Positions 31,194 to 64,000 of a DNA stretch of 64,000 nucleotides are shown here, piece by piece. Where the stretch lies: positions 4,258,501-4,322,500 of the forward strand of contig NZ_CP041360.1 in assembly GCF_006965485.1 (NCBI RefSeq). The letters are read 5' to 3'. The translations under genes were made by a program, and so were the position numbers. Positions within the stretch are counted from its first letter, which is position 1. Each line of letters opens with the position of its first letter. This DNA comes from Spirosoma sp. KCTC 42546. Its GTDB lineage: Bacteria > Bacteroidota > Bacteroidia > Cytophagales > Spirosomataceae. Under the pieces are notes generated by a model. It was not told the DNA's origin, made no database searches, and saw only the letters and a program-made list of their open reading frames with translations.

Positions 31194-32936
31194 ATGACTG
31201 AAGCAACCAAAGACTCCGACGAAGGCGTTACCAACGAAAATAGCACCGCTGGTGGCAGCAGTGCTGGTAGCTCCCTCAACTTCATTGAACAAATTGTAGA
31301 AGAAGACCTGGCCGTTGGTAAGAACGGTGGACGTATTCACACGCGTTTTCCACCCGAACCTAATGGCTACCTGCATATTGGCCACGCTAAATCCATTTGC
31401 CTGAACTTCGGACTGGCCGATAAGTACGGCGGGCAGACAAACCTTCGGTTTGACGATACAAATCCCGTAACGGAAGATACCGAATACGTTGATTCGATCA
31501 AGAACGATGTCCGTTGGCTGGGTTTCGACTGGGAAAACGAGTTTTATGCATCTGACTACTTCGACCAGATTTACCTCTTTGCTGAGAAACTGATTCAGAA
31601 GGGGTTAGCCTATGTAGACGATTCAACTTCGGAGGAAATTGCCGCTCAGAAAGGTACGCCGACTGAACCGGGACGCATGAGTCAGTACCGCGATCGGAGT
31701 GTGGATGAAAACCTCGATCTGTTCCGTCGTATGAAAGCTGGCGACTACCCCGACGGTGCCAAAGTGCTACGCGCAAAAGTCGATATGGCCTCGCCGAACA
31801 TGCAGTTGCGTGACCCAATCATTTACCGGATCAAACACGCGCATCACCACCGTACGGGCGATACCTGGTGTATTTATCCGATGTATGATTTCGCACATGG
31901 TCAGTCCGATGCGATTGAACACATTACCCACTCGCTCTGTACGCTGGAGTTTGAGGTACACCGGCCCTTATACGAGTGGTTTATTGATAAGCTTGATATT
32001 TTCCCCTCCCGCCAGATCGAGTTCGCGCGGCTCAACCTGACGTATACGGTCATGAGCAAACGTAAGCTCAAACAACTGGTGGAAGAAGGCCACGTGAGCG
32101 GCTGGGATGATCCCCGGATGCCAACCATCGCGGGTATTCGTCGGCGTGGTTATACCCCCGCCAGCATCCGTGAGTTTGCCGACCGTATCGGAATTGCCAA
32201 ACGCGATAACCTTATCGACGTGGGCTTGCTGGAATTCTGTCTGCGCGAAGAGTTGAATAAGACTACACACCGGGTCATGGCCGTTCTCGATGAAAAGCCC
32301 CTGAAACTCGTTTTAACGAATTACGAGGTTGGCCGTGAGGAGATCATGCCTATCGAAAACAACCCCGAAGACGCTACCGCGGGCGAACGCGATGTGCCCT
32401 TCAGCCGGGAAGTGTACATCGAGCGGGATGACTTCATGGAAGTTCCGCCGAAGAAATTCTTCCGCCTATTTCCGGGCGGTATGGTACGGCTGAAAGGTGC
32501 GTATATCATCAAGTGCGATGAGGTTGTAAAAGACAATGCAGGGGAAATTATCGAACTGCGCTGCTCCTACATTCCCGAAAGTCGGAGCGGTTCTGATACA
32601 TCGGGCATCAATGTGAAAGGCACGATTCACTGGGTATCGGTTCCACACGCCGTGGAAGCCGATGTTCGTCTGTACGACCGCCTGTTTTCCGTGGAGAACC
32701 CAGCGGCCGACGAACGGGATTTTAAAGAGTTACTGAATCCAAACTCGCTGGCAACCGTCCATGCGTTTGTTGAACCTGCCCTGGTAGAAGCTGCCCGATC
32801 GGGAGCCCAATCCAACTTCCAGTTCATGCGCAAAGGCTACTTCATCCTCGACCAGGACTCCACCGCCGACCGTCCCGTATTCAACCGGACCGTTACACTG
32901 AAAGACGGCTGGGCGAAGGAGATGAAGAAGGGGTGA
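31194..32936 (+). CDS. glnS: Glutaminyl-tRNA synthetase
   Basis: The 580-residue product attaches glutamine to tRNA-Gln in the cytoplasm. The class I signature HIGH is at 61-64 ([10 protein letters not shown]), and the second motif is VMSKRKL near 286. GlnRS-specific blocks are [17 protein letters not shown] and [16 protein letters not shown]. The C-terminal anticodon-binding beta-barrels end in [18 protein letters not shown]. Residues 1-28 form a low-complexity Ser/Gly/Ala/Asn extension not needed for catalysis. The last 57 bases occur again, diverged, at 33567-33623 beyond the DUF6883-DUF4926 pair. It is the one core-gene anchor next to an accessory patch. Confidence 0.97.
32880..32936 (+). 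repeat. glnS 3' end, left copy of direct repeat
   Basis: These 57 bases match 33567-33623 at 49 positions, with no gap. Confidence 0.85.
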
Positions 32937-32999: not shown

Positions 33000-33335
33000 A
33001 TGTTACCCTTTGCCGAACGTGCTCAAGCAGATGACTCAAAATTTTTGGGTTACTGATTGAATACGGAACATCCGTATGGGAAGCATAAAGCTCGCGTATT
33101 CCGTTCGGCATTAGGGATAACCAGTATTGAATGGGAAATTCTGCGCGATGCTGTTTTGTCGGCGGTACTGTTAAATTCAGCGACTCATGAGGGTAGAAAT
33201 AGCTATGGTGAAATTTACGTAGTTGACTTTGAGATGACTCATCAAGCCAAGACCGCCACTGTGCGAACCAGTTGGATTATTGATGACGGTAAAAACTTTC
33301 CACGACTAACGAGTTGTTACGTATTAAAAATATAA
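33000..33335 (+). pseudogene. DUF6883 gene with in-frame TGA
   Basis: From the ATG at 33000 the frame reads MLPFAERAQADDSKFLGY, then TGA at 33054-33056, then LNTEHPYGKHKARVFRSALG to a TAA at 33333. In DUF6883 proteins the N-terminal motif runs through this point (LPxAExA ... YxLNPEHPxGxHKARVF), so one sense codon, probably TGT, TGC or TGG, has become TGA. Everything after it is intact, including TATVRTSWIIDDGKNFPRL. A TTG at 33057 could restart a protein that lacks the first helix. DUF6883 is found alone and as a C-terminal module in toxin-like proteins; its function is unproven. It is paired with DUF4926. Confidence 0.7.
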
Positions 33336-33339
33336 TATC

Positions 33340-33555
33340 ATGGATGAGCTTCATTTGCATGATTTGGTGGCACTGACGACACCTTTGCCACAGTATAATT
33401 TGCGCCGGGGCGAAATAGGTGTAATCGTCGACATTGGCCCAGACATGAATTATTTGCTCGAATTTGTTGGCAAAAATGGAATACCCTACGCCATGCCAAC
33501 TGTTTCGGCAGCCCAACTGATGAAAGTCTATTTGCAGGCTGATATGGTTGAGTAA
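33340..33555 (+). CDS. DUF4926 protein, partner of DUF6883
   Basis: The 71-residue product fits DUF4926: MDELHLHDLVALTTPLPQYN, GEIGVIVDIG, YLLEFVGKNG and a C-terminal helix. The SH3-like strand pattern (DLVALT, GEIGVIVDI, YLLEFV) suggests a small barrel. It starts 4 bases after the DUF6883 stop. The two families occur side by side in many genomes in my recollection, which suggests a functional pair. A toxin-immunity or toxin-antitoxin relation is possible but not shown. The coding sequence is intact although its partner carries a nonsense codon. Confidence 0.75.
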   Translation: MDELHLHDLVALTTPLPQYNLRRGEIGVIVDIGPDMNYLLEFVGKNGIPYAMPTVSAAQLMKVYLQADMVE

Positions 33556-33566
33556 GTTTACTTTAT

Positions 33567-33623
33567 TTTAACCGGACGGTGAAGCTGAAAGACGGCGGGG
33601 CTAAGGAGATGAAGAAGGGTTGA
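33567..33623 (+). repeat. Diverged copy of the glnS 3' end
   Basis: In frame it would encode FNRTVKLKDGGAKEMKKG then TGA, against [18 protein letters not shown] of glnS. Eight of 57 bases differ, so it is an old or imported copy rather than a fresh duplication. Confidence 0.85.
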
Positions 33624-33646: not shown

Positions 33647-33712
33647 AATAAATGGTCTTTGTTTAGCAACTAATGGCTTAAGGCATAGGTTGCCAAACGA
33701 AGACCATTTATT
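33647..33712. repeat. 24-bp hairpin before the mrr gene
   Basis: Arms 33647-33670 and 33689-33712 pair with two G-U-compatible mismatches. It lies between the glnS-tail copy and the Mrr gene. Confidence 0.75.
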
Positions 33713-33745: not shown

Positions 33746-34632
33746 ATGGCCAGAACTAGAAAACATCAAAGGTTACCCAAATTCACTGATTTGTTTGTAC
33801 CTGTTGTTCAAGCCCTTATTGACCTTGGCGGCTCTGGAAATATTGAAGAAATAAATGAACGTGTCTATGAAATAACCAACTTATCTGAAGATGTATTAAA
33901 CATTCCTCATGGAAAAGATGGTAGAACTGAGATAGAATATCAGTTGGCGTGGACAAGAACTTATTTAAAAAAGTATGGGCTATTAGAGAACTCAGCTAGA
34001 GAACTCAGCTAGAGAACTCAGCAAGAAGTGTCTGGACACTCACGAATCAAAATATAAATCCAAATGAGATTAATCCAGATGAGATTGAAAGAAAGGTCAG
34101 AGACTCTTCAAAGAAAGCCTCTCAATCACAAACTGAAGAGCCTGATAATATAGAACAAGAAATTGAAGTAGCTGATTGGAAGGAGCAACTGCTGGAAAAG
34201 TTGTATATTATTTCACCTAGCAGTTTTGAACGCTTAACACAACGCTTATTGCGTGAAAGCGGATTTGTTCAAGTAGAGGTTACGGGAAAAACGGGCGATG
34301 GCGGTATTGATGGAAAAGGTATTGTTAGGATAAGTGGATTTTTAAGCTTCCATGTAATTTTTCAATGCAAACGATATAAAGGCACTATTACCCCTAGTCA
34401 AATCAGAGATTTTAGAGGAGCAATGCAAGGAAGAGCAGATAAGGGTCTATTCGTCACTACGGGCACTTTTACTAGAGAAGCGGTAAAAGAAGCAACTAGA
34501 GATGGCGCTCCTCCAATTGATTTGATTGATGGCGAACTTCTATGCGATAAACTTAAAGAGTTAAAACTAGGTGTTGAAACCGAGTTTATTGAAGTTGTTA
34601 AAGTTAAACAAGCTTGGTTTGATCAATTTTGA
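33746..34632 (+). pseudogene. mrr: Mrr-type restriction endonuclease, frame broken by 13-bp tandem repeat
   Basis: The first frame (33746-34012) encodes the Mrr N-terminal winged-helix domain (FTDLFVPVVQALIDLGGSG to RTYLKKYGLLENSA). It stops at TAG inside a tandem repeat of gagaactcagcta. The catalytic domain continues in another frame from about 34025 to 34632, with GKTGDGGIDGKGIV and FQCKRYKG, the D...QxK nuclease motif. Removing two of the three repeat units (26 bases) joins both frames into one protein of about 286 residues. Mrr proteins are type IV nucleases that cut methylated DNA. The gene looks AT-rich with many AGA codons, unlike neighbours, so it was probably acquired. It may be phase-variable rather than dead. 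Confidence 0.8.
33986..34024 (+). repeat. 13-bp tandem repeat inside mrr
   Basis: Units at 33986-33998 and 33999-34011 are identical (gagaactcagcta); the third, 34012-34024, differs in one base. Because 13 is not a multiple of 3, one or four units keep the frame open and two or three close it. Confidence 0.9.
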
Positions 34633-34666: not shown

Positions 34667-34927
34667 ATGTCTATCATCCGCAAATCAAGCAATATCAACG
34701 ATATTCCGGCTTACGATAAAGAATACTGGTGGGCTAAAACGCCACAGGAACGCCTGGCGGCTGCGCTAAAACTGATTCGGCGGGCAAAAGCCATCTATTA
34801 CGCAAACCCCAAAAACCCACCCCTAGGCAATGGAGGACAAGTATTTAAATCTGATAAGCCTATTGACCACCGAAAATTGCCGATTATTCAACCGCACGAC
34901 TTAGGCGATTTAGAAGTTTCGCTGTAA
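34667..34927 (+). CDS. Small uncharacterised protein
   Basis: The ATG at 34667 gives 86 residues beginning MSIIRKSSNINDIPAYDKEY; a TTG 21 bases upstream is less likely. The product is basic, has no signal peptide, and has one helical stretch (ERLAAALKLIRRAKAIYYA) followed by a Pro/Asn/Gly-rich loop. I do not recognise the family. It starts 34 bases after the Mrr gene and codon use is closer to the rest of the genome. It could be an antitoxin-like or accessory protein of the patch, but nothing in the sequence proves this. Confidence 0.55.
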   Translation: MSIIRKSSNINDIPAYDKEYWWAKTPQERLAAALKLIRRAKAIYYANPKNPPLGNGGQVFKSDKPIDHRKLPIIQPHDLGDLEVSL

Positions 34928-54153: not shown

Positions 54154-54155
54154 AA

Positions 54156-54245
54156 ATGATGAATTATGAATGATGAGTGATGAATGATGAACAACAAATG
54201 GTCTATGCGAACTCATTCATCATTCATCACTCATAATTCATCATT
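54156..54245. repeat. Imperfect hairpin of aatgatgaatt words
   Basis: Left arm 54156-54190 and right arm 54213-54245 pair over about 30 bases with a 7-base bulge. It fills the isomerase-kinase gap and ends 3 bases before the kinase start. Confidence 0.75.
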
Positions 54246-61183: not shown

Positions 61184-62053
61184 TTAACGCGAAAACACGG
61201 CCAACCGCATGTAAATTCCATTGGAAAAACCCGTACTCCAGGGCTGAATATCCAGTCTACGCCCGAGTTCGCTCTTGTTTTTCACTTCATGCAGTTTTGG
61301 AATACCCCAGCCTACTAATGAGCCGAAGGCGGCACCAGCTAGTAGATCAGACGGATAGTGCAGCCCACCCTCATAACGCAACACAGCCGTGGCCGTAGCC
61401 AATCCCAGTGAACCTACCCAAACAACAGGCTTTAATTTAGAATGAGGAAAATAATGGCGAAACACTTCGCTCGTGAAAACGGCGGTAGCAAATGCATTGG
61501 TCGCATGACCCGAAAAAAACGACTGTCGGGCATCTCGGGTAAGTTTTTCATCCATAGGGGCCGACGGATTATACACAAAGGGTCGGGTACGTTGCGTTAT
61601 GCCTTTCACGGTTCGTTCAATGCCGTTTGCAATCAGCATTGTTTCAATGAACATCACTCCCACTGTTTTAATATCCTGTCGCATTGACTTTGTTCCAACA
61701 GTAAGCAGGCCAGCGAGAGCAAAATTACCGGCCAGCGTAACGTCACTTAGACGGTCGGCCGAGCTAGACCAGCGATAAACTGCCTTCCGATCCAGTGCAT
61801 TGATATCATCGGGGCTAAGGGCACTAATCTCAGCTTGTGTCAGTGGCTCAATGCTATGACTTAGGGCAACCGAAGCTCCCAAAGACACCGCCCCTACGCC
61901 CATCCACGTAACTTCCCGACTCGTTTTGAGCTGGTAAGGGGACTGGGCAAAGGTTGGTTGAATGAATAGTGAACAATGTAGAATGAATAATGATGAGATA
62001 ATATGTTTTTTAAATCGGGCTACATCCAGGCTATTCGTGCGTTTTTTCATCAT
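61184..62053 (-). CDS. PAP2-family phosphatase, exported
   Basis: The 289-residue product carries the three phosphatase motifs in order: GITQRTRPF, SFFSGHATNAF, and RYEGGLHYPSDLLAG, with His and Asp for catalysis. Such membrane or periplasmic proteins dephosphorylate lipid pyrophosphates or similar compounds. The first 36 residues include HIISSLFILHCSLFI, which is encoded by repeat-like DNA; it still works as a signal segment. A 12-bp inverted repeat spans the start codon. It follows the helicase gene with a 30-base gap. The start could be the first or second Met. Confidence 0.88.
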   Translation of the reverse strand: MMKKRTNSLDVARFKKHIISSLFILHCSLFIQPTFAQSPYQLKTSREVTWMGVGAVSLGASVALSHSIEPLTQAEISALSPDDINALDRKAVYRWSSSADRLSDVTLAGNFALAGLLTVGTKSMRQDIKTVGVMFIETMLIANGIERTVKGITQRTRPFVYNPSAPMDEKLTRDARQSFFSGHATNAFATAVFTSEVFRHYFPHSKLKPVVWVGSLGLATATAVLRYEGGLHYPSDLLAGAAFGSLVGWGIPKLHEVKNKSELGRRLDIQPWSTGFSNGIYMRLAVFSR

Positions 62054-62061
62054 TCTACATT
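61975..62061. repeat. 12-bp inverted repeat spanning the PAP2 start
   Basis: Arms 61975-61986 (inside the signal-peptide codons) and 62050-62061 are exact complements; the second arm includes the start codon at 62053-62051. Confidence 0.7.
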
Positions 62062-62083
62062 AACCATTATACATTTTTCATTA

Positions 62084-64000
62084 TTAAACCACTCGCACTA
62101 CTTCGGGTTCATCGGCAAGATACACTAACCTGCCCTCAACTTCAGGATAACCCATTTCCCGGTACAAATTGGTAAAGTACCGTAGCGTACTGACCGGATT
62201 CGTAGGTAGTGAATTTTCCTTACCGGGCAAAGACTCATATTGCACCAGAACAATGTGGCCATCGGGGTAATGTACTACCCGATGTGGGGCTCCGTGCATT
62301 CGTTTGCTACTCAAAATACTCCGATCGGTATCAATCCGAAGGGTGGAGTCAAAAAGAGATGTTAAAGCTGGGTGTAAGACAATTGCCAGTAAAGCCTGCT
62401 TCAATAGTTCGCATTCTATCTTACGAATTAGCCCTTCACTTACGAGTTGCCGAAGTACTGCGTCAATCATTTCAGGGCCTTTGATCAGGCTCAGGGCTGC
62501 ACATAGTTTACGATCCCGTTCTCGGGTACGTTCAAACGTTGCTACGTCAAACATTCGGTCGGCTAGCCGACGCAGTTGCATATCCTGCCCTCGATTCCCA
62601 CTGACAACATCGTCCAGGAAAATCTCGTCAAGCGTTTCATCCAGTTGGTGGTGCGGAAACGAATCGGCGCACAGACTGATTTCGTAGCTGGTTCGGCCTT
62701 TCTCCCAGGCACAGCCGCAATTACGGGCCACTTCGCTATCACGCAGAAATGCATGCAGCCAGTAGCTTACGTCTTTCTGGTTGCCGATTTTATCGAAATC
62801 AGCTGCCTTGGCAATGATATACAGTCGGTCCGTGGGGCGGGTGAAAGCCACATAAAGCAGGTTCATATTTTCGATGAACGTGCGCGTTAGTTCCTCTTCG
62901 TATTGGGCCGCTACCGACGCTGGTGCACTGCGCAGTTTGCTAGTCGTGTTCGAGGGGGCAGACAGTAGACGGGTAAGCGGTCCGGTATCGGTTGAATGCG
63001 CCAGCGTATCGGTTCGAACGCCGGCCAGGTCGAGCCAGATCGTACTCTCGTTAATCGGCTCCACACGCCAGTTCGCGAATGGGATAATCACAACAGGGAA
63101 TTCCAGCCCCTTCGATTTGTGAATTGTTTGAATACTTACCGCATTCCGGGCATTCCCTTCCACCGAAATCTTTTGTCGAACACTATCCCAGTACACCAAA
63201 AAATCGCTCAGGTGTCCACTCCGTTTTTGATTGAAGGTTAATACTTCATCCAGGAATCGAAACAGAAACGGATTATGTTCAGCCTGATTAAAAAGTCCGA
63301 ACTGGGCCGTTAATCGCTCTGCCAGTTCGTAGGGATTCAACTGCCCTAAGGCGTAGGGATCAAGTGGGTAACCTTCTGCAGCTAGGTATTCATATACATC
63401 CGAAATATCATTTTCAGCTACAGTTCGTAGTTTCCCCGTCAGCACATCGTCCGGGAAAATGCCCTGCACCACCCGATGGAACAGATACAACAATTCGTAC
63501 CGAAGCATGCGTAGATCAGGACGCTGAAGTACACGCATGAGCGTAATGAGCCATTTGACCGGATCCGAAAACTCCAGCGACAACGAGTCTGCCGACACCA
63601 GGGGAATCTGGCGGGCGTTCAATTCATTAGCTAAGGCTTTGGCGTGCGATTTTTTGCGACACAGAATGGCAATATCACCGTATTGGTACCCCTCGGCCAA
63701 CGACTTTTCCAGATGCGCGATGGTTGTTTCGAGCATTTGGGTGGTTAGGTCTTTACCAAGTTCGTCGTCTTTATCAACAAAGTCTAGTTGTACATGTCCG
63801 GCCTTGTTTGCTTTCGGTTGCGCTTTCTGATGAAACTGGCGTTCGGCATCGAATACATCAGCCAATTTTGGGTGCTGATACTCAAATTGGCGAGCGACGA
63901 ACTCAAAAAAGTCATTATTGAATCGCACAATTGGCTCCGCGCTCCGCCAGTTCGTGTCCAGAATTTCGGGCTCCAGATGTCCGTCGAGCATACCAATTCG
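62084..64000 (-). CDS. UvrD-type helicase, 5' end cut by window edge
   Basis: The frame is open from base 64000 to a stop at 62084, so the N-terminus (Walker A and B motifs) is missing here. Visible are DTNWRSAEPIVRFNN (motif III-IV area), then IQTIHKSKGLEFPVVIIP (motif V) and MNLLYVAFTRPTDRLYI (motif VI). These belong to UvrD/AddA-type DNA helicases. The long C-terminal part after motif VI could be an AddA/RecB-like tail, but no nuclease motif (such as GxxDRID) is seen. It leads the short gene pair with the PAP2 phosphatase. DNA repair or recombination is the likely role. Confidence 0.9.
   Translation of the reverse strand, partial: RIGMLDGHLEPEILDTNWRSAEPIVRFNNDFFEFVARQFEYQHPKLADVFDAERQFHQKAQPKANKAGHVQLDFVDKDDELGKDLTTQMLETTIAHLEKSLAEGYQYGDIAILCRKKSHAKALANELNARQIPLVSADSLSLEFSDPVKWLITLMRVLQRPDLRMLRYELLYLFHRVVQGIFPDDVLTGKLRTVAENDISDVYEYLAAEGYPLDPYALGQLNPYELAERLTAQFGLFNQAEHNPFLFRFLDEVLTFNQKRSGHLSDFLVYWDSVRQKISVEGNARNAVSIQTIHKSKGLEFPVVIIPFANWRVEPINESTIWLDLAGVRTDTLAHSTDTGPLTRLLSAPSNTTSKLRSAPASVAAQYEEELTRTFIENMNLLYVAFTRPTDRLYIIAKAADFDKIGNQKDVSYWLHAFLRDSEVARNCGCAWEKGRTSYEISLCADSFPHHQLDETLDEIFLDDVVSGNRGQDMQLRRLADRMFDVATFERTRERDRKLCAALSLIKGPEMIDAVLRQLVSEGLIRKIECELLKQALLAIVLHPALTSLFDSTLRIDTDRSILSSKRMHGAPHRVVHYPDGHIVLVQYESLPGKENSLPTNPVSTLRYFTNLYREMGYPEVEGRLVYLADEPEVVRVV

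Follow-up and report, generated by a model that had tools for sequence, protein, structure and literature searches.

The mrr restriction gene at positions 33746–34632 on the forward strand of the 64,000-nucleotide stretch analysed here (the window) is most likely an ordinary Mrr-type gene, coding for a winged helix and a D...QxK nuclease, in which a short tandem duplication has recently abolished function. Inside the gene, the 13-bp unit TAGAGAACTCAGC stands three times head to tail without a mismatch and splits the gene into a 5′ and a 3′ part in different frames (Table 1). The allele is best described as a revertible loss of function rather than a two-way switch. Nothing found supports a two-way switch, and the layout of the array speaks against one.

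Table 1. Positions of mrr features and of the preceding inverted repeat in the window.
Feature	Position	Strand	Description
66-base inverted repeat	33647..33712	+	Arms of 33 nt, 85% complementary; just before the mrr start codon
5′ part of mrr	33746..34012	+	ATG to TAG 34010–34012, 88 codons; Mrr_N (winged helix) truncated in the wing
Tandem array, 3 x TAGAGAACTCAGC	33984..34022	+	Perfect 13-bp units
3′ part of mrr, open frame	34000..34632	+	Wing end, linker, Mrr_cat nuclease; stop at 34630
Asp codon of nuclease site (GDGGIDG)	34309..34311	+	D179 of P0001; role from general knowledge and the consulted sections of PMC3874153
Gln-Cys-Lys codons of nuclease site	34363..34371	+	Q197–K199 of P0001

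A first-pass annotation of the DNA had described an Mrr-type gene broken by three 13-base units, and this description was borne out. The 5′ ORF matches Mrr_N (PF14338) at 1.3e-12 over profile positions 1–72 of 87, the domain being truncated by the array, and the 3′ frame matches Mrr_cat (PF04471) at 7.3e-30 (Pfam). With the TAG at 34010 and the change of frame, the two domains do not come together in one polypeptide. The gene has the two hallmarks of the Mrr type, an N-terminal Mrr_N domain and a C-terminal Mrr_cat domain with conserved D and QxK residues. Across 27 aligned homologues these residues (D179, Q197 and K199 in the numbering of P0001) do not vary, and the window copy has them too. 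P0001, a protein of 285 aa, is the closest homologue among the matches listed, with 88% identity to the 3′ half and 87% over both halves. The best PADLOC match of mrr is the candidate system PDC-S02 (2.7e-30), ranking above mREase_IV (3.8e-18), and a search of NCBIfam with five pieces returned no match.

The break had first been placed between the DNA-binding and nuclease domains; it lies instead inside the DNA-binding domain. In the alignment, the two halves of the window copy join at P0001 residues 84/85. An AlphaFold2 model of P0001 (mean pLDDT 79, pTM 0.53; mean pLDDT 74 for residues 81–90), used to place the break only, has predicted strands at residues 80–82 and 87–90. As these strands flank residues 84/85, we take the array to sit in the turn of the putative winged-helix wing.

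The consequences of the array for translation follow from its phase. The unit is 13 bases long, which is not divisible by three, and one of its reading phases contains a TAG. The first unit is read in phase 2 and the next two in phases 1 and 0. This rotation, together with one TAG per unit, puts an in-frame TAG at the start of unit three in every array of at least three units. In the present three-unit state, the 5′ ORF stops at this TAG (34010), the first codon of unit three. With two units, downstream reading enters a frame whose next stop is at 34065 (the stops were computed, the rest is frame arithmetic). With one unit, downstream reading is the nuclease frame and meets no stop before 34630, which is also the uninterrupted reading of the family. 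The earlier claims that one unit restores a full Mrr and that two and three units are closed were therefore correct. The further claim that four units would be open again was mistaken: the downstream frame is right, but the TAG that opens unit three closes the four-unit array too. Stops read in three frames thus reject a multi-state switch that would be open at one and again at four units. The sole open state is one unit, that is, the gene without any repeat.

This geometry bears on the reading of mrr as a phase-variable defence gene, in which a minority of cells with one unit would make full Mrr and cells with at least two units would not. The locus does hold an in-gene tandem repeat of three perfect units whose length is not divisible by three, in a defence gene whose remainder is undamaged, and coding genes that switch by means of repeats are on record, among them icaC of S. 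aureus with its 4-bp unit (PMC4117637, sections consulted). A perfect array and an undamaged rest are equally expected of a selected switch, which counts against plain inactivation. However, the stops at all unit numbers leave no open state that still holds a repeat and could switch both ways. A gene with one unit offers no repeat for slippage, and passage from ON to OFF would therefore lack its substrate. Of the on/off slippage proposed in the first-pass annotation, one direction stands, as contraction could open mrr; the other does not, since re-closing needs a fresh duplication.

The array is also absent from relatives. The comparison of repeat number that had been suggested was run on 82 homologous loci, namely the best 80 of 259 genome matches and two loci from congeners (L002 and L003), and on 36 genomes of the genus, in which the species is represented by one genome. 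None of the 82 loci carries an array at the junction. At the junction, 81 of them have both halves in the same frame, and in 80 of the 82 the reading stays open all the way from where the N match begins to where the C match ends. L051 is broken by a frameshift upstream of the junction and L039 by a stop in the nuclease. Perfect tandem repeats of at least two copies (period 7–60) occur in seven of these 82 loci, none of them at the junction. A search for two adjacent units that tolerated as many as two mismatches found them in one of the 36 genus genomes, that of the window itself, and in none of the other 35. With one open state and no array among these relatives, the copy-number switch of the first-pass annotation is unsupported, and we consider a phase-variable mrr unlikely.

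Across the order, matches to P0001 were found in 48 of 291 genomes, the best outside the window's genome being 57–65% identical. In the congeners G024 and G031 the Mrr gene is full-length and shares 57–59% identity in its nuclease half; no glnS lies in the flanks that were fetched. Order-wide P0001 matches in G315, G269 and G229 contain an internal stop, at 42, 34 and 27% identity, respectively. In the window's genome, a single gene matches the nuclease half at E ≤0.001. Short Mrr_N proteins made up 52 of 54 candidates, one of them the window's own. Five (P0123, P0134, P0136, P0144 and P0170) end near the same wing turn and are known from the protein alone; in such proteins a stop, a frameshift and a contig end are indistinguishable without the DNA. 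The tail of the window protein, RELS, is absent from the other 51. P0170 (53 aa, on a contig of 1209 bases), seen as protein sequence only, is an Mrr_N ending in LENSAREV, near the window's LENSARELS.

DNA of mrr between glnS and a small downstream ORF was detected in three of the 36 genus genomes, the window's own, G018 and G001, by DNA matching that misses strongly diverged copies. In G018 and G001 only fragments of the gene are left, at the same place and with internal deletions common to both. The G018 remnant consists of about 25 codons from the start, a deletion, a 43-codon nuclease piece, a second deletion and the last codons. G001 has kept fewer codons of the start than the roughly 25 of G018, lacks another 13 bases, deleted between two GTTGTTCA repeats, and carries a stop in the nuclease piece. 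The ends of the first deletion share CTTATTG in the window sequence. Over 131 bases, the remnants are 82–83% identical to the window; because this is close to the identity of glnS (81.9–82.5%), remnants and window mrr fit common descent, for which exchange may be an alternative. The loss of mrr in two congeners counts against a switch.

Several other features lie in this neighbourhood. The inverted repeat upstream of mrr (Table 1) is probably the old glnS terminator, and it has counterparts upstream of the G018 and G001 remnants in which the sequence differs and the hairpin fold is kept. The 3′ end of glnS is present in two 57-bp copies, 86% identical (32880–32936 and 33567–33623), with a DUF6883–DUF4926 gene pair (33057–33555) between them. 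L108, L111 and L118 have this pair, or part of it, at about the same place, and a second glnS tail is present in L124; the pair is perhaps a cassette inserting behind glnS. Downstream of mrr, the DNA of the small ORF at 34667–34927 is conserved over much of the genus. By eye, its end resembles the end of the nucleotidyltransferase-like ORF that comes next in G018 (L004:875-1315), and the two were perhaps fused by a deletion.

Comparison with the remnants and with full-length homologues indicates how recent the lesion is. Over the 43 codons shared with G018, the window shows 20 synonymous differences and one replacement (dN = 0.010, dS saturated). Over the 43 shared with G001, it shows 17 synonymous differences and four others, one of them a stop (dN = 0.031, dS 1.76). 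G018 and G001 differ from each other at six bases, three of them protein-changing (a split read from the listed codons). Conservation was assessed in 113 full-length homologues of 270–310 aa, among the 120 matches listed nearest to the window. Against this set, the window copy deviates at none of the 94 columns conserved at ≥99%, at one of 118 conserved at 97% and at two of 129 conserved at 95%, where the mean of the others is 1.14. At the 90% level it deviates at five of 146 columns (mean 2.36; 17 of 113 homologues equal or higher) and at the 80% level at ten of 174 (mean 6.58). There is also a single-residue gap in the linker.

The 20:1 synonymous bias and the intact conserved residues argue that the window copy was constrained until recently. 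The deviations at the 90% columns may reflect a slight relaxation, which the sequence does not need for its explanation. An old pseudogene is rejected for the window copy by the conserved columns and the synonymous bias; it is a true description of the copies in G018 and G001. No second lesion was found, in agreement with the earlier statement that decay has not set in, and judged from the sequence the array is the only clear lesion of mrr.

The origin of the array was assessed against the background of tandem repeats in this genome. Perfect arrays of at least three copies (period 9–40) number one in the 64-kb window and none in 100 dinucleotide-preserving shuffles, which speaks against the mrr array being a chance occurrence. 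Two-copy tandems in the window number four against a shuffle mean of 0.24, so short tandem duplications are not rare here. A scan for perfect arrays took in the window plus 40 stretches, each of 20 kb, distributed over the genome, in total 864 kb or about a tenth of its 8.66 Mb, and returned 72 arrays of at least two copies (period 8–60). Two of these have at least three copies, the mrr array and one 8-bp array; no other perfect array of at least three copies with a period of 9–60 was found in the 864 kb. The scanned sample thus holds no family of in-gene repeats pointing to a general switching system, a further point against a switch at mrr.

The 8-bp array consists of 14 copies of AGGGAGGA at L159:17894-18006 (G000:C1, about 1117894–1118006), between two long divergent or neighbouring ORFs, and is, of the two arrays, the stronger candidate for varying in copy number. 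A+T-rich tandem repeats of 7 and 14 bp and similar type were seen at 54155–54245 and 61961–62084 in the window and at L138:19464, L163:5526 and L173:3953, with units such as AATGATG, TCATTCA, CATTATCCATTATT and the like recurring in the genome.

Taken as a recent inactivation, the locus suggests a simple course of events. A 13-bp stretch coding for the wing turn would have grown from one unit to three, in two duplication steps or through a single triplication, probably by replication slippage or something similar. Translation ends after 88 codons owing to the 26 additional bases and the TAG within the unit, so that the main start would yield no nuclease. Being a perfect direct repeat, the lesion could in principle be reversed, and mrr re-opened, if slippage removed exactly two units. 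Loss of the gene was perhaps favoured, by analogy with E. coli Mrr, if the enzyme can attack the DNA of its own cell when a new methyltransferase arrives; the consulted sections of one study describe DNA damage by E. coli Mrr upon entry of certain foreign methyltransferases (PMC3874153).

An extension of this reading, which we regard as rather doubtful, is that mrr is a latched defence gene, a self-endangering nuclease that a short perfect repeat keeps switched off and that rare cells re-arm when the array contracts exactly to the unrepeated state, which is then stable. If true, such a one-way 'monomer-ON' contingency would be unlike classical two-way repeat switches. Should one-unit revertants be frequent, the locus would make a simple test case for the revertible storage of a costly nuclease.

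It is very improbable that the array is an assembly or sequencing artefact and that the true sequence has one unit and an intact mrr. One unit is indeed the state of the family; however, the genome is a single contig, a 39-bp array fits within any ordinary read, and three exact copies would, as a matter of general knowledge, be atypical of an error. The least credible reading is a split but functional gene, with the nuclease half made separately by a restart at TTG 34201 or by ribosomal frameshifting in the array: Mrr_cat is complete downstream of this TTG, but it is the first start codon in the 3′ frame, with no ATG or GTG before it, it lies 188 bases from the TAG stop, and no slippery heptamer was seen by eye in 33998–34012 (AGA GAA CTC AGC TAG).

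A recent, revertible inactivation makes the locus a small example of restriction-gene loss, with the gene nearly intact here and reduced to fragments through slippage-type deletions in two congeners. It also carries a caution, in that finding a non-triplet tandem repeat within a defence gene is not enough to call it a switch. Every unit number has to be taken through the frame test, which for mrr leaves only the unrepeated state open.

With its order of Mrr_N followed by Mrr_cat and its D...QxK residues, the gene resembles EcoKMrr and the Mrr-type modification-dependent (type IV) enzymes; this domain order is given for EcoKMrr in the consulted parts of two sources (PMC3874153, PMC12707154). 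Unlike EcoKMrr, the window copy is split by the array, and modification dependence is only putative for this branch. A review describes phase-variable type I and III systems and names none for Mrr in the part consulted (PMC12707154). Our literature search, too limited to show that none exists, found no report of a phase-variable Mrr. Tandem repeats of variable copy number are described in promoters of M. tuberculosis (PMC12817950, in part). In icaC of S. aureus, as in mrr, the reading frame depends on how many units a tandem repeat within the gene has, and the consulted sections of that study show reversion and variable isolates for its 4-bp repeat (PMC4117637). By contrast, the mrr unit is 13 bp long with an internal stop, only its unrepeated state is open, and no variation was seen in its unit number. 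Xenorhabdus lrp likewise carries short tandem duplications in a coding gene; in the portion consulted, these are 26–116 bp long, were found in culture experiments and were judged plain mutations rather than phase variation (PMC6786866). The mrr array is of the same kind, a short tandem duplication within a coding gene, and differs from that of lrp in consisting of 13 bp in three units and in having been found in a sequenced genome.
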